Of a stretch of 38,492 nucleotides of DNA, positions 11,063 through 30,043 are shown in pieces. Both the position numbers and the translations under genes were made by a program. The DNA is from a virus. Each line of letters starts with the position of its first letter. Positions within the stretch are counted from its first letter, which is position 1. The notes under the pieces are model-generated. The model saw only the letters and a list, made by a program, of their open reading frames with translations. It did not search any database and was not told the origin of the DNA. Where the stretch lies: positions 1-38,492 of the IMG/VR virus record IMGVR_UViG_3300047564_001292. One strand, given 5' to 3'.

Positions 11063-19354
<8,292 letters not shown>

Positions 19355-19355
19355 T

Positions 19356-19787
19356 ATGAGAGAAAATTATACTTACAATTGGGAAATACTTTCTATTACC
19401 AAAATGAATCTTGAAGATAACAATAATGTAATCTTCAAGATTATATGGAGATTGATTGGAATAGATCCAAATGGTGTAGAGGGAGTATTTAAGGGATCCA
19501 CCGAACTAACACTACCAGATCAATTTGATGATAATTTTATCGAATATGAAAATATAACCCAAGAAAATATTATTAACTGGATTCAGCAGATTTTAAATAT
19601 GGATGATGTTTATTCTGCTATAGATGATGATATGGAAAAAAATAAAAAGCAGATAGAAATTGTTTTTAATGGACAATATCCTTGGCAACAAATTACTATA
19701 GATCCGACTCCAGTAGATCCATCCACAATATTACATGATGCTACGGGTTTACTCACAATATCACCAGAACAAAGTTTCTCTAATTAA
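19356..19787 (+). CDS. Small conserved cyanophage virion-region protein (143 aa)
   Basis: The start is taken at ATG 19356 (MRENYTYNWEILSITKMNLE), one base after the fibre stop, rather than an upstream in-frame TTG inside the fibre gene. The pattern W-E-I, then a strand-rich centre with GVEGVFKGSTELTLPD, then ITQENIINWIQQIL and a C-terminal PWQ motif is a layout repeatedly found beside fibre genes in cyanophages. Its biochemical role is unknown to me. One-base spacing from the fibre implies translational coupling, so it could be an assembly partner of the fibre; this is inference. Confidence 0.65.
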   Translation: MRENYTYNWEILSITKMNLEDNNNVIFKIIWRLIGIDPNGVEGVFKGSTELTLPDQFDDNFIEYENITQENIINWIQQILNMDDVYSAIDDDMEKNKKQIEIVFNGQYPWQQITIDPTPVDPSTILHDATGLLTISPEQSFSN

Positions 19788-19789
19788 AT

Positions 19790-21829
19790 ATGGTATTACA
19801 AAGCAGCGGCGCTATTAGCTTATCTAATATTCAAACGGAATTTGGAGGAACTAATCCGATTTCAATCAGTGAATATTATGCTGCAGCTGCAGGTGTTCCT
19901 TCTAGTGGGGCTATAGATTTTAGTGATTTTTATGGGAAGTCTTCGACTCCAGCTCCAGCAACAGGAAGAGGTCTTTTTGCAGGAGGTTATAATACACCAA
20001 CACCTACTACGTCTATAACTTATAATATAATAGATTATGTCACAATATCAACAGCAGGAAACGCAACTGATTTTGGTGATTTAACTGTAGGACGCAGATA
20101 TATTTCAGGATGTTCCTCAAGCACTCGTGCAGTTTTTGGTGGTGGTCAGGCGACTACCGTAGTTATCAATAACATAGACTATGTCACAATAGCAACCACA
20201 GGAAATGCTATTGATTTTGGGGATTTAACCGGCGCAACTCGCTATGGATACGGATCATTTTCCAATAGCACTCGTGGAGTTTTTGGTAGCGGTCAGTCGG
20301 TCACGCCGGCGGTGGTGGTGTTAAACGTAATAGACTATGTCACAATAGCAACTACAGGAAATGCTACTGATTTTGGGGATTTAACTTTGGCACGTTCAGC
20401 TGCTTCAGGTTGTTCTTCACCAACTCGTGGAGTTTTTAGTGGTGGATTTGTTTCTCCAATTGCATATAATATAATAGACTATGTTACAATAGCAACCACA
20501 GGAAATGCTATTGATTTTGGGGATTTAACTGCAGCACGCAGTATTATTAGTTCATGTTCTTCAAGCACTCGTGGAGTTTTTGGTGGGGGTGGATATTTAA
20601 ACATAATAGACTATGTCACAATAGCAACCACAGGAAATGCTACAGATTTTGGTGATTTAAGCGGAGATCGGGTGGGTGCGGCCGCACCTTCCAATAGTAC
20701 TCGCGGAGTTTTTGGTGGTGGAGCTACATTTATAACGCCAGCAATAATATACATTAACACAATAGAATACATTACAATAGCAACCACAGGAAATGCTATT
20801 GATTTTGGTGATCTAAGTATAACGAGAGGGGATCTTGCAGGATGTTCAGACTCTCACGGCGGTCTCGATGGCGGCGGTGGTGGTGGCGGCGGGATTGGAA
20901 GAGGTGTCTTTGCTGGTGGCGGCATACTTCCTTCCACAGTTCTAAACACTATAGAATACATTACAATAGCAACAACAGGTAATTCTACCGATTTTGGTGA
21001 TTTAACCGTAGCACGGAATGTGGCAGCATGTTCCTCAAGCACTCGTGGTGCATTTGCTGGTGGAGCAGTTGGCGCAGCACCAACAACAACATATTATAAT
21101 AATATAGACTATATCACAATAGCAACGACTGGTAATGCTATTGATTTTGGTGATTTAACCGTGACAAGAAGCGGTTCTAGGGCTTGCTCTTCAAGCACTC
21201 GTGGTGTATTTGGTGGTGGTTTCTCTCCAACATTATATTTAAACACTATAGACTACATCACAATAGCAACAACAGGTAATACTATTGATTTTGGTGATTT
21301 AACCGCGGCTCGAACAGGTCTATCGGCATGTTCTTCAAGCACTCGCGGGATATTTAGTGGAGGCAACGCTGCTGCACCTGCTATAACACCAGCAACATTC
21401 TATAATACTATAGAATATATAACTATAGCAACAACAGGTAATGCTACTGATTTTGGAGATATGCTCACAAGACGCACATCCCTATCGGCATGTTCTTCAA
21501 GCACTCGTGGATTATTTGCAGGAGGTACATCACCATCGCCAATAGCAAATGTATATTATAACATTATAGAATATATAACAATAGCAACGACTGGTAATGC
21601 TACTGATTTTGGTGATTTAACTGTCCCGCGTGGATATTTTGGTGCATGTTCCTCAAGCACTCGTGGAGTTTTTGCTGGTGGATATGATATTCTTTCACCT
21701 GTTGTAACTTATAATACGATAGACTACATCACAATAGCAACAACAGGTAATGCTACTGATTTTGGTGATTTATCAGCATTAATTTATTCATTGGACGGAT
21801 GTTCAGACTCTCACGGGGGTCTAGCATAA
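19790..21829 (+). CDS. Kelch-like repeat protein, two fused six-bladed propellers
   Basis: The N-terminal about 50 residues (GAISLSNIQTEFGGTNPISI then SGAIDFSDFYGKS) form a cyanophage virion-attachment motif. Twelve repeats follow, each about 45-55 residues: R-G-V-F-x-G-G, a variable segment, then IDYVTIATTGNA-DFGDL and CSSST. Repeats 1-6 end at residues 352-359 with CSDSHGGL. A Gly8 linker (residues 361-368) joins repeats 7-12, which end in the same CSDSHGGL at the C-terminus. This is best read as a duplicated six-bladed beta-propeller. A receptor- or glycan-binding role is plausible. The ATG lies 2 nt after the previous stop. Confidence 0.8.
   Translation: MVLQSSGAISLSNIQTEFGGTNPISISEYYAAAAGVPSSGAIDFSDFYGKSSTPAPATGRGLFAGGYNTPTPTTSITYNIIDYVTISTAGNATDFGDLTVGRRYISGCSSSTRAVFGGGQATTVVINNIDYVTIATTGNAIDFGDLTGATRYGYGSFSNSTRGVFGSGQSVTPAVVVLNVIDYVTIATTGNATDFGDLTLARSAASGCSSPTRGVFSGGFVSPIAYNIIDYVTIATTGNAIDFGDLTAARSIISSCSSSTRGVFGGGGYLNIIDYVTIATTGNATDFGDLSGDRVGAAAPSNSTRGVFGGGATFITPAIIYINTIEYITIATTGNAIDFGDLSITRGDLAGCSDSHGGLDGGGGGGGGIGRGVFAGGGILPSTVLNTIEYITIATTGNSTDFGDLTVARNVAACSSSTRGAFAGGAVGAAPTTTYYNNIDYITIATTGNAIDFGDLTVTRSGSRACSSSTRGVFGGGFSPTLYLNTIDYITIATTGNTIDFGDLTAARTGLSACSSSTRGIFSGGNAAAPAITPATFYNTIEYITIATTGNATDFGDMLTRRTSLSACSSSTRGLFAGGTSPSPIANVYYNIIEYITIATTGNATDFGDLTVPRGYFGACSSSTRGVFAGGYDILSPVVTYNTIDYITIATTGNATDFGDLSALIYSLDGCSDSHGGLA
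20870..20893 (+). repeat. Octaglycine linker between two propeller halves
   Basis: Eight consecutive Gly codons (GGC/GGT/GGG mixture) directly follow CSDSHGGLD and precede IGRGVFAGG, which restarts the blade pattern as after the N-terminal domain. Confidence 0.85.
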
Positions 21830-21832
21830 ATA
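21825..21832 (+). promoter_or_regulatory. Late promoter-like octamer CATAAATA
   Basis: It overlaps the stop codon of the propeller gene and lies 24 nt before the ATG at 21857, a spacing shared with other octamers in the window. Confidence 0.5.
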
Positions 21833-21856
21833 TCATTAGACAATGATTTGAATTAT

Positions 21857-22705
21857 ATGTCATCAGAACTTAGTATTAATATTTCATCAATACATAAGGA
21901 CCTTTCAACACTTCCACAAGAATACACTGGAATGTTGAGTCATATTAGAGAAGGTCTACCAGCAGTCGAAAGAGTCACAGAAAACTTTTACAAGTCTGGT
22001 TCTCAGTTTAAAAATGTAACTCTGGATATTACTGATTTAACACCAATCAGTAGTGTTAAGCATATTCTTGCGTCTATTAATAAAACCAAGATGGCACTTA
22101 CTGAAGCTCAACTTGGAAGAAAAAAAACAGAGATCAATCTAAAAAAGAAACAAAAAGAACTCGAAACAATCGAAGATGAATTCGATAGAGAACTTTGTCA
22201 AATTGAAATTATTGAAATGATGAGTGGGTTAAAGACCTCAGAAGATGTTATGAAAGGTGCGATCAGAAAACTTTCATTTCTGATGACACAATATCAATCG
22301 GTTATGGATCATCTTGGAAAAGATCATTTAACCGAAGAAGATTACGAAAGAGAAGAAAGACGATATCATATTATGACTGCATTTAAGCAAGCATTGAACT
22401 CATCTCGCCCAAGACAAGGTGTTATGGATGAAGGAAATTCAATTTATATGTTTGAACTTGGTATCAATGTTGGTCACGCTCAAGCAGAAATTCTCAATTA
22501 CCTTCGGATGGAACATCAGTTGTTCCAAGAAGGAAAGGTTCCAACTCACGAAATGACAATAAAGTGGTTAGAGGCTTGTGCGGATTTATTTGAAAATTGT
22601 CCAGAAAAATTTGCAGAAAGTCGTGGATTTAAAGTTTTAGATCAAAAATCATTAGCAGCACCAGAACCTTATAAATCAATCGAAGCATCAAAAACTGAGG
22701 AATAA
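21857..22705 (+). CDS. Conserved coiled-coil protein of unknown function (282 aa)
   Basis: The start is chosen at ATG 21857 (MSSELSINISSIHKDLSTLP) over an in-frame TTG 9 nt earlier. A long charged coiled coil covers about residues 75-115 (LGRKKTEINLKKKQKELETI), followed by helices with EEDYEREERRYHIM and FKQALNSSRPRQG, then FELGINVGHAQAEILNYLRM. No catalytic motif is seen. Similar soluble helical proteins occur in marine T4-like phages without an assigned role. It precedes the glycosyltransferase by 3 nt, so the two are very probably co-translated and may be functionally linked. Confidence 0.7.
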   Translation: MSSELSINISSIHKDLSTLPQEYTGMLSHIREGLPAVERVTENFYKSGSQFKNVTLDITDLTPISSVKHILASINKTKMALTEAQLGRKKTEINLKKKQKELETIEDEFDRELCQIEIIEMMSGLKTSEDVMKGAIRKLSFLMTQYQSVMDHLGKDHLTEEDYEREERRYHIMTAFKQALNSSRPRQGVMDEGNSIYMFELGINVGHAQAEILNYLRMEHQLFQEGKVPTHEMTIKWLEACADLFENCPEKFAESRGFKVLDQKSLAAPEPYKSIEASKTEE

Positions 22706-22708
22706 ATT

Positions 22709-23473
22709 ATGTTTCATCTTGCTATTGGAACTCCAATGTATGGAGGTCAGTGTACTAGTGAATATACACAATCCGTTTTAAATTTAACAGAAGCAATTAA
22801 CACAAGCGGCAATAGAGTAACTTCAATTTTTCTTGGAAATGAGTCATTAATTCAAAGAGGAAGAAATACAATTGCTCACCATTTCTTAAATACAGATGCC
22901 ACACATCTGATCTTTATTGATGCTGATATTAAATTCAGACCTGGCGACATCGCTAAAATGATCAAGGCAGATAAAGAATTAATCATTGGCCCAGTTCCAC
23001 TAAAAGGTATTGACTGGGAAAACGTAAGAATGTGTGCTCTTGAGGGAAAGGAAAATCTTTGGAAACAGGGTGGTGTGTTTAACATTAATCATCTTGATGG
23101 GCATTTTATGCAAGATGAAGAAGAACCTTTTGAAATTAAGCACGGTGGTGGTGCAATGATGCTCATCAAAAGAGAAGTATTTGAAAGTCTAATTCCACAT
23201 ACGGACACTTACATTAATGGTGGAGTGACAATTCCACAAGGAAAAGAGATTTATAACTTCTTTAGAGTTGAGATTAACGAAGAAAAACAACTTTTATCTG
23301 AAGATTATTTCTTCTGCGAATCTTATAGGAAAATTGGTGGAAAAGTTTGGTGTGCTCCTTGGTTTGATGTGGGGCATTTTGGATCTTACCTATTCTCAGG
23401 TAAGTATTCTGAAACTTTTAAACCAGAAATCACCAAGCCCAAGTCACCGCAGAATATCTTTTCCCAACTGTAA
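22709..23473 (+). CDS. GT-A type glycosyltransferase (254 aa)
   Basis: The sequence IGTPMYGGQCTSEYTQSV near the start, RGRNTIAHHFL, and then THLIFIDADIKFRPGD with a D-A-D metal site (residues 71-73) mark a GT-A nucleotide-sugar transferase of the Anp1/GT2-like kind. The downstream KHGGGAMMLIKREVFE and SEDYFFCESYRKIGGKVWCA (SED at residues 197-199) supply the usual acceptor-site acid, and GHFGSYLF a late His. The product is soluble, with no membrane segment. The target could be a phage fibre or host surface glycan; this is unknown. Its last 44 nt overlap the end of the convergent oxygenase gene. Confidence 0.8.
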   Translation: MFHLAIGTPMYGGQCTSEYTQSVLNLTEAINTSGNRVTSIFLGNESLIQRGRNTIAHHFLNTDATHLIFIDADIKFRPGDIAKMIKADKELIIGPVPLKGIDWENVRMCALEGKENLWKQGGVFNINHLDGHFMQDEEEPFEIKHGGGAMMLIKREVFESLIPHTDTYINGGVTIPQGKEIYNFFRVEINEEKQLLSEDYFFCESYRKIGGKVWCAPWFDVGHFGSYLFSGKYSETFKPEITKPKSPQNIFSQL

Positions 23474-24011
23474 CTTCTTTAACTTGATGTGGATACATAA
23501 AATTACTCGGGAACATAATAATGTCTCCACATCCAAGTTTTACTGCCTGATCTCCCCAGAATACTAACTCACCACCAGTATAATCATCATTAAAATTTAA
23601 AATGAAACTGAGAACTGGAATTCCTTTTTCGTTACCATCAAATATTGAATGAATATGGTCAAAGTGTTCTCTCATTATTTGACCTTTTGAATAACGATTA
23701 AACCGAATATTGCAAAATTTATTCATAATTTGGCACATTCTTGGAATATCCAAATAAGCAAACTTTGAATTATAAATTGCTCCCGCTTGAATGACATATG
23801 GAGTAAGAACTTGATTCAACTCTGGAGATGCAGTTTGTACATCCAATTCCATCGTTTCTTCGCTACTAGCATTGTTACTAATAGGACTATGCCATTGATG
23901 GGGGGACCATTGATTTTCCTCTATTTGTTGAATAATATCAACGCATAAATCTTTTGGAATAAATTCTTTTTCCAAATGAACATAATCTTTAATATTTTCG
24001 TATCTAATCAT
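23430..24011 (-). CDS. 2-oxoglutarate/Fe(II) oxygenase, prolyl-4-hydroxylase-like (193 aa)
   Basis: The double-stranded beta-helix signature is visible: H-F-D at residues 116-118 inside MREHFDHIHSIFDG, the strand region GIPVLSFILNFNDDYTGGEL, the distal His in YPHQV (residue 175), and the 2OG-binding Arg185 in GKRYSAVTW. These are the two-His-one-carboxylate iron site and the cosubstrate Arg of P4H-like oxygenases. The substrate is unknown; protein, sugar and nucleotide targets all exist in the superfamily. It is translated after the upstream minus-strand oxygenase through an ATGA overlap, and its 3' end overlaps the glycosyltransferase gene by 44 nt. Confidence 0.88.
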   Translation of the reverse strand: MIRYENIKDYVHLEKEFIPKDLCVDIIQQIEENQWSPHQWHSPISNNASSEETMELDVQTASPELNQVLTPYVIQAGAIYNSKFAYLDIPRMCQIMNKFCNIRFNRYSKGQIMREHFDHIHSIFDGNEKGIPVLSFILNFNDDYTGGELVFWGDQAVKLGCGDIIMFPSNFMYPHQVKEVTVGKRYSAVTWAW

Positions 24012-24628
24012 TTTAGTGGAAGGTAAGTTAAGGATTCAATTTTACCAAGAGACTCTGTTTCAAATGTATTAAATGCAAGGCTAATTCTTGGAGTTGTAGA
24101 TACATTTTCAGGGACACCATGATAAAGTGTTGATGGAAATAAAATAAGTTCTCCAGTTTCTAACGGGAGTAAAAATGTTTCTGCATTAAAATTATTATGA
24201 TTTTTAATGGTGAATGAATACATTTCATTATTTTTGTTTCTAAATTCAATGGGTGGAAGAGTTTTGTTTATTTGAAAATAAAATACTCCACTAACAATAC
24301 TATTAGGATGCCGATGTTCGTGATGTTTTTTTCCATTGTCAGTAATATTTGCCCAAGATTGTGTAATTTTTAATTTATTTGAGCATTCGAGGACATCATT
24401 AACGTAAAAATTAATTTGAGAATCAATAAATTCTCTGATATTTTTTAGTTGAGGGTTATCTAATAAAAAAGTATCAGAAGATTGTTTGCTATATATTTTT
24501 TGCGTTTCTGGAGTATTTAAATTATATTCTAAACTCTTTACATATTCCAATTCTTCAGACAAATCTTTTTCATATTTTGAAATAAGAACCGGAATTGGAA
24601 ATAATTGTAGAAGTTCTCTATTTGACAT
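24008..24628 (-). CDS. 2OG-Fe(II) oxygenase of the LFP-type family (206 aa)
   Basis: The N-terminus MSNRELLQLFPIPVLISKYE matches the LFPtPv opening of the TIGR02466/2OG-FeII_Oxy_5 group. A central SWANITDNGKKHHEHRHPNS and SGVFYFQINK is followed by ELILFPSTLYHGVPEN and RISLAFNTF, giving the His-rich metal region, distal His and Arg expected. An ATG 51 nt upstream is in frame, but a sigma70-like promoter lies between it and the chosen start, and only the internal start gives the family N-terminus. Its TGA overlaps the next minus-strand ATG (ATGA). The substrate is unknown; roles in nucleotide, sugar or peptide hydroxylation are possible. Confidence 0.82.
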   Translation of the reverse strand: MSNRELLQLFPIPVLISKYEKDLSEELEYVKSLEYNLNTPETQKIYSKQSSDTFLLDNPQLKNIREFIDSQINFYVNDVLECSNKLKITQSWANITDNGKKHHEHRHPNSIVSGVFYFQINKTLPPIEFRNKNNEMYSFTIKNHNNFNAETFLLPLETGELILFPSTLYHGVPENVSTTPRISLAFNTFETESLGKIESLTYLPLK

Positions 24629-24650
24629 ATATTTAAAGATACATATAGAA

Positions 24651-24680
24651 ATTATACAATATTCATATTGAATATGCAAA
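24651..24680 (-). promoter_or_regulatory. Sigma70-like promoter for the oxygenase pair, with a dyad in its spacer
   Basis: On the minus strand TTTGCA (24680-24675) and an exact TATAAT (24656-24651) are separated by 18 nt. A 17-nt dyad (ATATTCA, spacer TAT, TGAATAT; 24659-24675) fills the space between the boxes. Initiation near 24644 would leave a leader of about 16 nt before the ATG at 24628. Confidence 0.5.
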
Positions 24681-24772: not shown

Positions 24773-27700
24773 GTGGCATATTTAAGTACTTTACTTGGGG
24801 CTAATTTCACTGGAGCACAAGGTACTCAAGGTGTCCAGGGAAGGCAGGGAACTACTGGCACTCAAGGAGCAACAGGAACACAAGGACTTCAGGGAATTCA
24901 GGGATCTTTAGGTCCTCAAGGAATTCAGGGAATTACAGGATCTCAGGGAGCAACAGGAACCCAAGGTCTTCAGGGAATTCAGGGAACTATAGGTCCTCAG
25001 GGTATTCAGGGAACTATAGGATCTCAAGGTATTCAAGGACGTCAGGGTATTCAGGGAACTATAGGTCCTCAGGGTATTCAGGGAACTATAGGATCTCAAG
25101 GTATTCAAGGACGTCAGGGTATTCAGGGAACTACAGGATCTCAGGGAACTACAGGTGCAACTGGTGCGACTGGATCTCAAGGAACTACAGGAACTACTGG
25201 AACTACTGGTGCGACTGGATCTCAAGGAACTATAGGATCTCAAGGAACTGCAGGCGCGACTGGCGCGACTGGATCTCAGGGAACTGCAGGATCTCAAGGA
25301 ACTATAGGATCTCAGGGTATTCAAGGTGTTCAAGGTATTCAAGGACGTCAGGGTATTCAGGGAACCACAGGAACTACAGGTTCTCAAGGAACTACAGGAA
25401 CCACAGGAACTACAGGTTCTCAAGGAACTACAGGAACCCAAGGAACTACAGGAACCACAGGAACTACAGGTTCTCAAGGAACAACTGGATCTCAAGGAAC
25501 AACTGGATCTCAAGGTGTTCAGGGTCGTCAAGGGACTACAGGTGCATCAGGAGAAACTGGTGCTACTGGTGCTCAAGGAACTACAGGTTCTCAAGGAATC
25601 CAAGGAATTACAGGTCCAGTAGCAGGTTCCGCAAATCAAGTTGTATATAAAGACGGATCTAATAACCCAACAGGTTCTAGTAATTTAACTTTTAATGGAA
25701 CTGCACTTTATGCAAATCAAATTACTGGTCCAGCGGAACTTGTAATTGATCCAACGTCTATTGGAGATAATACTGGAGCAGTAAGAATTAAAGGTGATTT
25801 ATATGTTGATGGTTCAAACTTCATAGTCAATTCATCAACAATTGAGTTGGCAGATTTTGTGGTTGGTATTGCATCTACAGTAGCAACAAATGCACTTCTT
25901 GATGGAGCTGGTATTGGTATTGGATCCGTAGGAATTCGCAAGACAATTACTTGGAATAATACTGCAACCGCATTAACATCGAGCGAAGATTGGAATCTTG
26001 CTTCAGGTAAGCAATATAAGATTAATGGAACTTCGGTATTAACTTCAACAACACTAGGTTCTGGAGTTGTCAATTCATCTTTAACTTCCGTTGGAACATT
26101 AGGTCTATTAAATGTTACTGGTATTGTTACTGCATCTAGATTTGTTTCTAATGTGGCAACAGGAACTGCACCATTCACAGTCTCTTCAACGACTCTTGTA
26201 TCTAATTTAAATGCCGATTTACTTGATGGGTTAAATTCCGCATCGACAAACACAGCATCAACTATTGTAGCAAGAGATGCTTCAGGTAACTTTAGTGCTG
26301 GCACTATTAGTGCTTCGTTGACAGGTTCTGCTTCAAACAACGTGTTGAAAGCAGGCGACACGATGACAGGTCAATTGATTTCAACTCTTGCAAATAATAC
26401 TGCAACTGGTGGTGGTCAAATATACCTGAATGGGGCAAATGGAAATAGAATTGATTTTAATACAAATGGTGTTGCTGCTCCGACAACTACAACAAGAAGT
26501 GCTGGAACTAAGTTAGTTTTATGGCCAGGACTAAGTGCAACTAATGTTGATTATGCACTTGGTATTGATAGTTCTACTATGTGGTATTCTGTTGATACTA
26601 CTTCAGCACAATTTAAGTGGTTTGCAGGAACTAGTAATGTCGCCACTTTAACTGGCGCCGGAAACTTCAGTGCGACTGGAAGTATTACTGGAAATACAAT
26701 CGTAAAATCTGGAGGAACTTCGTCTCAGTTCTTAAAAGCAGATGGATCTGTAGATACTAATACCTATATTACTTCTGCTTCTGTAGGCAATGGAACTCTG
26801 TCTTTAGCAGTTTCCGGAACTGGTCTTTCTGGTTCAGCATCATTTACTGCAAACCAAAGTGGAAATACAACTTTTACAGTAACATCTAATGCAACTTCAG
26901 CAAACACAGCATCTGCAATAGTTGCTAGAGATGCTTCGGGTAACTTTACTGCGGGAACAATTACTGCAAATTTAACAGGAAATATAACAAATACAGTTAC
27001 AGGAACTAATTCAACTGCACTAGTTTATGGTAATATGGCAGATAACGACCAATTTAGAATTTTAATTGGCGGAACTGCTTCTAATGCTGGATATGTTGAA
27101 ATTGCAACAGCAGATGACGGAACTGAACCAATTTATGTAAGACAATATACGGGCGTATTTACAACACTTGCAAGAACTGCCACACTACTTGATGGAAGTG
27201 GAAATACTAGTTTTCCTGGCAGTGTTACAGGAAATACAATCGTAAAATCTGGAGGAACTTCTTCTCAGTTCCTAAAAGCAGATGGATCCGTTGATTCTAA
27301 TACTTATATTACTTCAGCTTCTGTAGGTAACGGAACTCTTACTTTAGGAGTTTCTGGAACTGGTCTTTCTGGTTCCGCATCATTTACCGCAAACCAAAGT
27401 GGTGCTACCACATTCACTGTAACTTCGAACGCGACTTCAGCAAACACAGCATCTGCAATAGTTGCTAGAGATGCTTCTGGAAACTTTACTGCTGGAACTA
27501 TTACTGCTACAAGTTTCTCAGGTTCCTTAGCAAACACATTAACTTTAAATACCTCAGGAACTGGATTATCTGGATCCACAACATTTAATAACTCTGGTGC
27601 AGCAACATTTACCGTAACATCTAACGCGACTTCTGCAAACACAGCATCTGCAATAGTTGCTAGAGATGCTTCCGGAAACTTTACTGCTGGAACTATTACT

Positions 27701-30043
27701 GCTGCAACTTCATTTGTAAAATCTGGAGGAACTTCATCTCAGTTCTTAAAAGCAGATGGTTCTGTTGACTCCAATGCTTACATTACTTCTGCTTCTGTAG
27801 GCAATGGAACTCTGACTTTAGCAGTTTCCGGAACTGGATTATCTGGATCTGCATCATTTACGGCAAACCAAAGTGGTGCGACAACATTCACAGTAACCTC
27901 TAATGCAACTAATGCAAATACAGCATCTGCAATAGTTGCTCGTGATGCTTCGGGTAACTTTAGTGCTGGCACAATATCAGCAGGATTATCCGCTTCTGCA
28001 GACGCGGCAATTGTCAATCAAAACAACGGAAACTCTGCTGCTTGGTATGGTAGAATTCTTTCTAAAAACTCAACCAGTGATAAAGCATCATTCTTAGGAA
28101 CTTATGGTAGTATTGCTGGAGTTTTTGCACATAATAATGCTCTAAGTGCTTGGACGGATTTATATGTGAATACCGTTGATGGTGGAAGCAATGGTGGTAC
28201 AGTAAGAATGCCCCCCTCCGTCTTAGTCAATGGAAGCCAAGTTTGGCACGCTGGTAATGATGGTGCAGGTAGTGGATTAGATGCCGATTTAATTGATGGT
28301 ATTAATTCCACTGGTTTATTCAATAATATGGGAGCTCTTCACTCTACAAGAAGTAGTTTTGATGCCACAACACCTTCTTATGATTTTGGTTTTAGATTTG
28401 TTCAAGGAAGCACCAATGGTCCAGGAACTTCTGGATCTCAATTCTATTCTTGGTATATTGGTCTAGGTTCTGAATATGCAGCGACTGGTGCTGGTTCTTA
28501 TGGAGCAATGTTTGCTGTTGATAGAAATGTCACCAACCCATATTTAACAGTTAGATATAATGAAGGAAATTCTTTCACTTCCTGGTATAAGATCAGAGCA
28601 GGTGCTGCGGACCAAGTAATAAATTCAGTTACCTTTAATAACGGTGGTGCTGGTGGTGCATCTGGTAGCACATTTAATGGAAGTGGTGCTTTAACAGTTT
28701 CTTATAACACAATCGGTGCATCTCCGTTAGCAGGTTCCACTAGTTTAACCACCACTGGTACTGTAACTACTGGTACTTGGTCTGGTTCTTTTGGTGCTGT
28801 ATCTGGTGCTAACTTAACTAGTCTTACTGCAGGAAACTTAAGTGGAACAATACCTTCAGCAGTATTAGGTAACTCAGTTCACTTCATTGGCACTACTTCT
28901 ATTGCACTAAACAGAGCATCTGCTGCTCAAACTTTAACTGGAGTAAATATTGATGGCAGTTCTGGTTCTTGTACTGGTAATGCTGCCACAGCAACTAGTG
29001 CCGACCAAATAGACGGAATTGCATTTAGAAATTCAAATAGCACATCAGCGATTAGTGCTCCAGATACATTAGATAGCAATGGAATTGGATATGTAACTAA
29101 TATATCACTTTATAGCCAAACTGACGGTGCTTTATATGCACAAGCATATAGTGCAGCTTGGCAACATCAGATATATGGAGATTATAGAACTGGTCAAATA
29201 GCAATAAGAGGTAAAAATAATGGAACTTGGCAGGCTTGGCGTAATGTTCTCGATAGCACTAATTACACTACATATGCTGCTGCAAGTAACCATACACACG
29301 GTAATATTACCAATGCTGGTGCTATTGGTTCTGTAGCAAACCTACCAATTATTACAACAACAAGTGGTGTATTAACTACTGGTTCATTTGGTTCAGCAGC
29401 AAATACTTTCTGTCAAGGTAATGATTCTCGTCTAAGTGATACTAGAAACACAACTAATAGCATTACGTTTAACAATGCTGGTGCTGGGGATGCCAGCGGA
29501 ACAACTTTCAATGGATCCACCGCAAGAACAATTTCATACAACACAATCGGCGCATCTCCGTTAGCAGGTTCCACTAGTTTAACTACAACTGGCACCGTAA
29601 CTAATGGTACTTGGTCTGGTACTTTTGGTGTCGTATCTGGTGCTAACTTAACTAATTTGACTGCAGGAAACTTAAGTGGAACAATACCTTCAGCAGTATT
29701 AGGTAACTCAGTTCACTTCATTGGTACTACTTCTATTGCACTCAATAGAGCATCTGCTTCACAAAGTTTAACTGGCGTAAGCATTGATGGTTCTTCAGGT
29801 TCTTGTACTGGCAACTCTTCTACTGCAACAACCTTACAAACAACAAGAACTATTTGGGGTCAAAACTTTAATGGTAGTGCCAATGTTTCTGGTGCATTGA
29901 CTGGAGTAACTAATATAACTGCTACTGGCAACATTGCTGCCGATGGTGCATTCCGTGCAGAGTCTTCAGACTCTACACAAAGATTTGATATTTACTATAA
30001 TGAGACTACTGATAGTCTTGATTTTGATTATCTCACCGCATAA
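24773..30043 (+). CDS. Second collagen-like long tail fibre (1756 aa)
   Basis: The start is a GTG at 24773 (AYLSTLLGANFTGAQ), preceded by AGGAACCGAAG. About residues 14-283 are Gly-X-Y repeats with the same [18 protein letters not shown] module as the giant fibre. The distal part is T4-fibre-like: NADLLDG, VARDASGNFTAGTITA and SGGTSSQFLKADGSVD units, VWHAGNDGAGSGLDADLIDG, and a 1200-1300 region with FRFVQGSTNGPG and YSWYIGLGSEYA. It ends ESSDSTQRFDIYYNETTDSL-DFDYLTA with no S74 chaperone, so folding may depend on the small proteins that follow. Two 367-nt repeats (offset 834 nt) lie near its end. It is most likely a long fibre subunit involved in host binding. Confidence 0.85.
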   Translation: MAYLSTLLGANFTGAQGTQGVQGRQGTTGTQGATGTQGLQGIQGSLGPQGIQGITGSQGATGTQGLQGIQGTIGPQGIQGTIGSQGIQGRQGIQGTIGPQGIQGTIGSQGIQGRQGIQGTTGSQGTTGATGATGSQGTTGTTGTTGATGSQGTIGSQGTAGATGATGSQGTAGSQGTIGSQGIQGVQGIQGRQGIQGTTGTTGSQGTTGTTGTTGSQGTTGTQGTTGTTGTTGSQGTTGSQGTTGSQGVQGRQGTTGASGETGATGAQGTTGSQGIQGITGPVAGSANQVVYKDGSNNPTGSSNLTFNGTALYANQITGPAELVIDPTSIGDNTGAVRIKGDLYVDGSNFIVNSSTIELADFVVGIASTVATNALLDGAGIGIGSVGIRKTITWNNTATALTSSEDWNLASGKQYKINGTSVLTSTTLGSGVVNSSLTSVGTLGLLNVTGIVTASRFVSNVATGTAPFTVSSTTLVSNLNADLLDGLNSASTNTASTIVARDASGNFSAGTISASLTGSASNNVLKAGDTMTGQLISTLANNTATGGGQIYLNGANGNRIDFNTNGVAAPTTTTRSAGTKLVLWPGLSATNVDYALGIDSSTMWYSVDTTSAQFKWFAGTSNVATLTGAGNFSATGSITGNTIVKSGGTSSQFLKADGSVDTNTYITSASVGNGTLSLAVSGTGLSGSASFTANQSGNTTFTVTSNATSANTASAIVARDASGNFTAGTITANLTGNITNTVTGTNSTALVYGNMADNDQFRILIGGTASNAGYVEIATADDGTEPIYVRQYTGVFTTLARTATLLDGSGNTSFPGSVTGNTIVKSGGTSSQFLKADGSVDSNTYITSASVGNGTLTLGVSGTGLSGSASFTANQSGATTFTVTSNATSANTASAIVARDASGNFTAGTITATSFSGSLANTLTLNTSGTGLSGSTTFNNSGAATFTVTSNATSANTASAIVARDASGNFTAGTITAATSFVKSGGTSSQFLKADGSVDSNAYITSASVGNGTLTLAVSGTGLSGSASFTANQSGATTFTVTSNATNANTASAIVARDASGNFSAGTISAGLSASADAAIVNQNNGNSAAWYGRILSKNSTSDKASFLGTYGSIAGVFAHNNALSAWTDLYVNTVDGGSNGGTVRMPPSVLVNGSQVWHAGNDGAGSGLDADLIDGINSTGLFNNMGALHSTRSSFDATTPSYDFGFRFVQGSTNGPGTSGSQFYSWYIGLGSEYAATGAGSYGAMFAVDRNVTNPYLTVRYNEGNSFTSWYKIRAGAADQVINSVTFNNGGAGGASGSTFNGSGALTVSYNTIGASPLAGSTSLTTTGTVTTGTWSGSFGAVSGANLTSLTAGNLSGTIPSAVLGNSVHFIGTTSIALNRASAAQTLTGVNIDGSSGSCTGNAATATSADQIDGIAFRNSNSTSAISAPDTLDSNGIGYVTNISLYSQTDGALYAQAYSAAWQHQIYGDYRTGQIAIRGKNNGTWQAWRNVLDSTNYTTYAAASNHTHGNITNAGAIGSVANLPIITTTSGVLTTGSFGSAANTFCQGNDSRLSDTRNTTNSITFNNAGAGDASGTTFNGSTARTISYNTIGASPLAGSTSLTTTGTVTNGTWSGTFGVVSGANLTNLTAGNLSGTIPSAVLGNSVHFIGTTSIALNRASASQSLTGVSIDGSSGSCTGNSSTATTLQTTRTIWGQNFNGSANVSGALTGVTNITATGNIAADGAFRAESSDSTQRFDIYYNETTDSLDFDYLTA
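24812..25621 (+). repeat. Collagen-like block of the second fibre (270 residues)
   Basis: A continuous Gly-X-Y run beginning GAQGTQGVQGRQ. It contains two identical adjacent 72-nt copies (24982-25053 and 25054-25125) and ends in the junction [16 protein letters not shown] shared with the giant fibre. Confidence 0.95.
26701..27972 (+). repeat. Repeated fibre shaft modules
   Basis: The module SGGTSSQFLKADGSVD followed by YITSASVGNGTL, GTGLSGSASFTANQSG and TASAIVARDASGNF starts near 26701, 27241 and 27714, with a half copy near 27541-27712. Synonymous differences separate the copies. Confidence 0.85.
28624..28990 (+). repeat. Copy A of a 367-nt intragenic direct repeat
   Basis: It encodes TIGASPLAGSTSLTTTGTV through SIALNRASAAQTLTGV and SGSCTGNAATA. 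Copy B lies exactly 834 nt downstream without net length change. Confidence 0.85.
29458..29824 (+). repeat. Copy B of the 367-nt intragenic direct repeat
   Basis: It encodes the same series (TIGASPLAGSTSLTTTGTV, then SIALNRASASQSLTGV) with scattered substitutions relative to copy A. Confidence 0.85.

Follow-up and report, generated by a model that had tools for sequence, protein, structure and literature searches.

A phage protein predicted to carry two six-bladed Kelch-type propellers, from a family in which whole rings seem to be gained and lost

Introduction

How does a phage come to encode a protein with twelve similar repeats, do these repeats build one structure or two, and what could such a protein be for? 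The question is raised by an ORF of 679 aa with an ATG start (19790..21829, plus strand) in the window, that is, the whole stretch of 38,492 nucleotides of viral DNA analysed here. A sequence-only reading had proposed that the ORF arose by in-frame fusion of two tandem copies of a six-bladed propeller gene. The explanation that we favour, and that we hold to be rather probable, is that the ORF encodes a two-headed virion adhesin composed of six-bladed rings, whose number changes as whole rings are gained or lost.

Results

Repeat organization and predicted fold

The ORF call, the repeat layout and a blade HMM delimit the following architecture, all on the plus strand. A non-repeat N-terminal plug or adaptor (aa 1-58; 19790..19963), common to many propeller-free proteins and modelled with low pLDDT, precedes a first ring (aa 59-359; 19964..20866) defined by its repeats, the blade HMM and the model. 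Its six Kelch-like blades start at aa 59, 112, 161, 212, 260 and 304, and it ends with the motif CSDSHGGL (aa 352-359; 20843..20866). A D-G8-I linker (aa 360-369; 20867..20896), predicted to be flexible (pLDDT <50 at 361-368), leads into the second ring (aa 370-678; 20897..21823), recognized by the same evidence, with blade starts at aa 370, 418, 470, 518, 572 and 624 and a second CSDSHGGL (aa 671-678; 21800..21823) that adjoins the C-terminus. Blades start with sequences of the GRGLFAGG/TRGVFGGG type, form repeats of 44-54 residues (the two terminal ones excepted) and conform to the consensus TRGVFAGG...N.IDYITIATTGNATDFGDLT.AR....ACSSS; all twelve are matched by the blade HMM, with domain E-values from 8e-18 to 3e-24. 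The layout described from the letters alone is thus confirmed: six repeats precede each CSDSHGGL, D plus eight glycines join the halves right after the internal copy, and the halves restart alike, with GRGLFAGG (after PAT) in the first and GRGVFAGG in the second. An Rfam scan of 19000-23000 returned no element at gathering scores.

AlphaFold2 modelling of the whole protein, using an alignment that included 40 two-ring relatives, gave a mean pLDDT of 84.5, with runs below 50 only at residues 1-56 and 361-368, and the best PDB match of this model in Foldseek was the Kelch domain of KEAP1 (TM 0.89 on target). The whole-protein VIA-align listing covered ring 2 (370-673), with 7onh as the best match (Z 39.2, rmsd 2.4 over 296 residues) together with 7onc (Z 38.9, rmsd 1.9 over 280 residues), and ring 1 was for this reason modelled separately (aa 58-360, 54 sequences in the alignment). 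On its own, ring 1 reached a pLDDT of 95.4 and a pTM of 0.92; its best match was 7onc, a six-bladed Kelch design (Z 39.2, rmsd 1.9 over 277/281 residues), and Keap1 5wfv matched with Z 37.5. Since both halves match six-bladed Kelch structures, each is predicted to form a closed, Keap1-like propeller of six blades, and the models bear out the two separate rings anticipated by the earlier reading. A continuous twelve-bladed ring or solenoid was dismissed, because each half fits a complete six-bladed ring and the linker between them is modelled with low confidence.

The resemblance to Kelch lies in the fold and in part of the repeat signature. Across 2440 blades, the di-glycine after the second strand is present (GG at columns 7-8, 1.05 and 0.66 bits). 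The Kelch repeat has in addition a conserved Tyr and Trp; in the same blades a Tyr stands at column 19, and the consensus lacks the Trp and carries F31-G32-D33 in its place. No Kelch model appeared among the Pfam matches of the window protein up to E 10, no NCBIfam model scored above cut-off in the family members tested, and a search of PDB sequences with the propeller alignment returned a single row (E 0.23), nothing convincing.

In Keap1-type Kelch propellers, blade 1 is completed by the C-terminal strand. In each window ring the chain begins with strand b (RGLFAGG), and its last strand is an a strand, at the place taken by CSSSTRG in other blades. DSSP assigns strands at 350-353 and 669-672, which correspond to GCSD of the motif region, and the Keap1 alignments reach residue 609. 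In the predicted models, DSSP and the fold matches suggest that CSDSHGGL is best read as a putative ring-closing strand plus tail, beyond a fossil C-terminus; it would be more than a relic because a closing strand is expected at this position. The proposal that the old C-terminus is preserved inside the protein thus holds as far as the presence of the internal motif is concerned, but this motif lies where ring-closing strand a would be expected and does not simply mark a former terminus.

A family of single, double and triple rings

Single scans of IMG/VR yielded 257 relatives of the window protein and 401 of the related protein encoded by L091, a 22-kb contig described below. The loci analysed were the best 80 of 257, the best 80 of 401 and, for the partner gene introduced below, the best 80 of 531, and they lean towards window-like sequences; certain loci share one contig (e.g., L004 and L158). 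Blades were counted in one ORF per distinct last 250 residues, ORFs open at a contig end being dropped. Among the resulting 312 distinct complete ORFs (211 loci), six blades were found in 173, twelve in 120 and eighteen in 5. As these 298 ORFs carry multiples of six, the twelve-repeat layout of the window protein is more than chance. The other 14 comprise 8 ORFs with 10-11 hits across a span of about twelve blades, in which weak blades were probably missed, and 6 that are short or split. HGG[LIV] occurs within the last 20 residues of 126/173 six-blade, 104/120 twelve-blade and 4/5 eighteen-blade ORFs, and the single-ring homologues ending in CS[ND]xHGGL that the fusion proposal had led one to look for are common among the relatives. 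Single-, double- and triple-ring genes therefore all exist, and the two-ring architecture is not peculiar to the window phage, since two-ring proteins are widespread in the family. Ring number also varies behind plugs of one class: those of the MANYPQLD type (n=37) are followed by double rings in 29 cases, single rings in 5 and triple rings in 3, and those of the GVWTLDQVAYW type (n=35) by 28 doubles and 7 singles.

The seams between rings are diverse. In many doubles near the window protein the internal seam is of the CSSAAAAVQPTPTS type, without HGG, and the poly-glycine linker is found in the window protein alone among the doubles compared, as well as in L091. Because other doubles use other linkers, several of them without an internal HGG, the glycines and the internal HGG are both dispensable for a two-ring protein. 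The single-ring genes of L040 and L042 end in HGGLNDGYQGT[KR] followed by a stop codon, while sister doubles run the same linker into ring 2.

Arrays of at least two propeller ORFs are frequent, with up to seven in L163. In L065 (1238-8056), six single-ring propeller genes lie in tandem in one reading frame throughout, with ends lacking HGG. Genes split across frames were seen in L058 (3947-5843, 3+9 blades) and L006 (3514-4697, 2+4 blades), and frameshifts or sequencing errors may account for this. Synechococcus phage S-SKS1 (two entries) is the only isolate with propeller relatives in 50,697 phage records, and Vibrio phage F86 matches the plug only; the matching stretch of S-SKS1 (L080, 4343-6226) lies partly where no gene is annotated. 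Seven propeller loci (L224-L230) were found in bacterial genomes, on MAG or single-cell contigs that are possibly phage sequence, and a plasmid search found no relatives. The window gene is real and well-formed, and belongs to a large family from which cultured members are almost absent.

A close relative differing by one ring

The L091 contig shares with the window a collagen-like region upstream of the propeller gene (79% DNA identity) and a similar plug. Its propeller gene carries an extra ring, A, which ends with CSDSDGGI and is followed by a poly-glycine linker and by ring B, the orthologue of window ring 1 (84% aa and 87% DNA identity); a second glycine linker and the first residues of a third ring follow before the contig ends. 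From the sequences, the two loci, closely related as they are, apparently differ by one complete ring, which was either gained in one or lost in the other.

Entropy across 2440 blades peaks in the b-c loop (columns 9-14, 2.8-4.0 bits) and in the d-a connection (columns 36-41, 2.7-3.8 bits); nearly all insertions fall at column 12, within the b-c loop, and conservation is greater at the c-d and a-b turns. The topology of a four-stranded meander places b-c and d-a connections on one face. When window ring 1 is compared with L091 ring B, 29/103 residues differ in the b-c/d-a stretches (28%) versus 18/196 elsewhere (9%; P 4e-5), in a split that used the window's own conserved motif and thereby favours the result. 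Synonymous change at conserved residues is similar in both (15/74 in the loop stretches, 31/178 elsewhere). The face of each ring that bears these loops carries most of the variation and presumably binds a ligand on the host surface.

Plug, neighbouring genes and a conserved partner

The plug was found in 58 loci and is coupled to propellers only in the window's own two contigs and in L091. No propellers were seen in the other plug loci, a few of which end at a contig end, and the plug there occurs with other C-terminal domains. Upstream of the ORF, matches to neck, sheath-stabiliser and tail-fibre PHROGs define a tail or structural region, whose sheath stabiliser is closest to those of T4-like cyanophages. 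A collagen-like protein of 2,759 aa, with an S74 intramolecular chaperone domain at its C-terminus, is encoded just upstream (11075-19354), and further downstream (24773-30043) a 1,756-aa ORF matches collagen-like minor tail and tail fibre PHROGs. The interval 22709-24679 contains a glycosyltransferase-like gene and two 2OG-Fe(II) oxygenase genes (minus strand), with homologues in 46-54/149 propeller loci; virion proteins, the collagen-like ones for instance, might be modified by their products.

Directly downstream of the propeller ORF, as of propeller arrays in general, stands a conserved partner gene of 285 aa with a weak match to phrog_1409 (21848..22705, plus strand). Homologues of this gene accompany 108/149 propeller loci versus 0/55 plug-only loci, many of the loci without a partner ending too early, and 89/109 partner copies begin right after the propeller ORF. 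In the reverse direction, a single scan provided the 531 partner relatives, and among the best 80 a propeller ORF was found upstream in 65 of the 73 loci with at least 400 nt of upstream sequence, on contigs that partly overlap those of the earlier scans. The partner is well conserved, with 75% mean column identity in 30 sequences versus 44% and 47% in the propeller alignments. Of these 30 members, 28 match phrog_1409, a group of unknown function, weakly (best 4.5e-10). Searches with the partner gave no match of weight in Pfam (best E 0.0084), no match among PDB sequences and no homologue in isolate phage records. As a guess, the partner could be a chaperone or hub for the propellers.

Origin of the two halves

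Both trees group the window halves, and a common origin for them is likely. In a tree of 246 distinct rings, from which, as from the register test, 7 proteins whose blade hits are not a multiple of six were left out, the halves are sisters (0.966), and no other double has its own two halves paired. A tree of 430 rings pairs ring 1 with L091 ring B (0.996) and then adds ring 2 (0.994). One gene duplicated in tandem in recent times, with subsequent loss of the stop codon, would account for the grouping, and the two CSDSHGGL copies share 6/8 codons; we nevertheless regard such an event as possible but somewhat doubtful. It would predict a correspondence that is absent, as a register of blade i with blade i+6 is not favoured (protein rank 127/720, synonymous codons 72/720; p 0.18), and ring 1 is equally near the single ring of L003 and ring 2 (64% identity in both cases). 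Moreover, the split between the halves is older than the divergence of window and L091, so that a duplication would not be very recent. The codon identity of the motif, considered as proof of recent duplication, was discarded as weak, being just mildly unusual (P 0.05-0.09). The window rings also rank 4th and 5th of 246 by internal blade similarity, i.e., they are among the most consensus-like, and could on that account be drawn together in the tree.

The two halves may instead derive from the fusion of two non-identical adjacent propeller genes, or one ring may have been acquired from another array, an origin that we consider quite possible while stopping short of calling it probable. Adjacent propeller genes are, as described above, common, and the first and second rings of most doubles fall in different old lineages: the nearest neighbour of a first ring (D1) is another D1 in 100/120 doubles and that of a second ring (D2) another D2 in 109/120, the window included. 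These like-position neighbours imply that most doubles are old two-ring designs, from which that of the window is separate. Synonymous codons are likewise shared more among blades inside each window half than across halves (partition rank 4/462), although the placement of both halves together in the two trees speaks against a fusion of unlike genes. The codon rank hinted as well at ongoing homogenization of blades within rings, a candidate that was set aside as not strong because a collinear alignment of ring 1 with L091 ring B shows 84% identity, versus a mean of 63% among the blades of ring 1.

Discussion

The concentration of variation in loops, the presence of the plug on unrelated domains and the tail genes upstream together suggest a virion adhesin, and the division of labour expected of such a protein is seen in a plug common to varied proteins and in variation gathered in one set of loops. 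According to the model that we favour, the N-terminal plug (aa 1-58) would presumably dock on the virion, and two closed six-bladed Kelch-type propellers would be carried on a poly-glycine tether. Each ring would be entered at strand b of blade 1, which the final strand a with CSDSHGGL should complete, and the variable b-c/d-a face would contact the host-surface ligand. The possession of two rings could confer avidity or two specificities. The count of six blades per ring would hardly change, whereas polypeptides would differ in how many rings they contain (1-3) and arrays in how many genes, whole rings being gained or lost at linker seams. The repeat layout, the predicted six-bladed folds, the variation in ring number, its counterpart in the loop sequences, the sharing of the plug and the linkage to the partner gene come directly from the analyses; we infer that the protein is on the virion, that it binds a ligand, that two rings bring avidity and that recombination takes place at the glycine seam.

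The Kelch domains known so far mostly bind proteins inside cells, which counts against an adhesin, and those of known structure among our matches are largely binders of peptides or inhibitors (Keap1 and KLHL entries). The window protein could accordingly be conceived as a soluble intracellular protein-binding scaffold, or as a counter-defence protein. We consider this unlikely, given that the gene is placed after tail and collagen-like genes, that the plug is common to diverse domains, that divergence is concentrated in loops and that Kelch virion proteins exist in other phages. In a more far-reaching version of the adhesin model, which we put forward tentatively and with some doubt, the family would form a two-part system of bead-like arrays of 1-3-ring propellers and one conserved partner acting as chaperone or hub; whole rings would be the evolving unit, linker seams the exchange points, and the poly-glycine stretches of the window/L091 group recombination seams at which rings are added or removed.

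As the family is abundant in uncultured phages, lacks Pfam and NCBIfam matches in the members tested and has one cultured example, it plausibly represents an unlabelled set of host-recognition proteins. Its one-, two- and three-ring members provide a natural series for testing avidity and specificity, and the partner gene is a marker for locating further arrays.

Comparison with known systems

Kelch repeats carry Trp at the position of the DFGD of the window blades. Either window ring resembles the KEAP1 Kelch domain and the SAKe designs in being a six-bladed closed propeller (Z 37-39, rmsd 1.9-2.6 over 270-296 residues) with Gly-Gly after strand b, and differs from them in its low identity (12-21% in the matched rows), in having no Pfam Kelch match, in that DFGD replacement, and in the presence of two rings per chain together with a phage plug. 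Kelch proteins of giant phages (CBB, PhiPA3, Noxifer, Phabio and PS119XW) share with the window protein a Kelch-like predicted fold, and some are annotated as virion structural proteins, but their identity to it is 12-16% in the listed rows; one of them, CBB_552, has been identified in mature phage by mass spectrometry (PMC5259590). The closest viral fold matches are an uncharacterised propeller protein of S-SKS1, M4QT40 (24% identity, TMq 0.72; 29% by tblastn), and A0A6J7WZC1 of an uncultured phage (44% identity, TMq 0.93). PHROG 19111, a 443-position profile of unknown function, matches the window protein at aa 61-365 and again over another stretch (full-protein E 1e-31).

In the literature searched on Kelch and propeller proteins in phages, no title or abstract describing this propeller family was found; the fold is known, and as far as searched the whole-ring modularity and the linkage to a partner gene have not been described. 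Propellers are usually described as expanding one blade at a time, through amplification of single blades (PMC9218822). In contrast, blade number in the family presented here is near-frozen at six while whole rings come and go, and it is whole rings, not single blades, that seem to be the unit added or lost.
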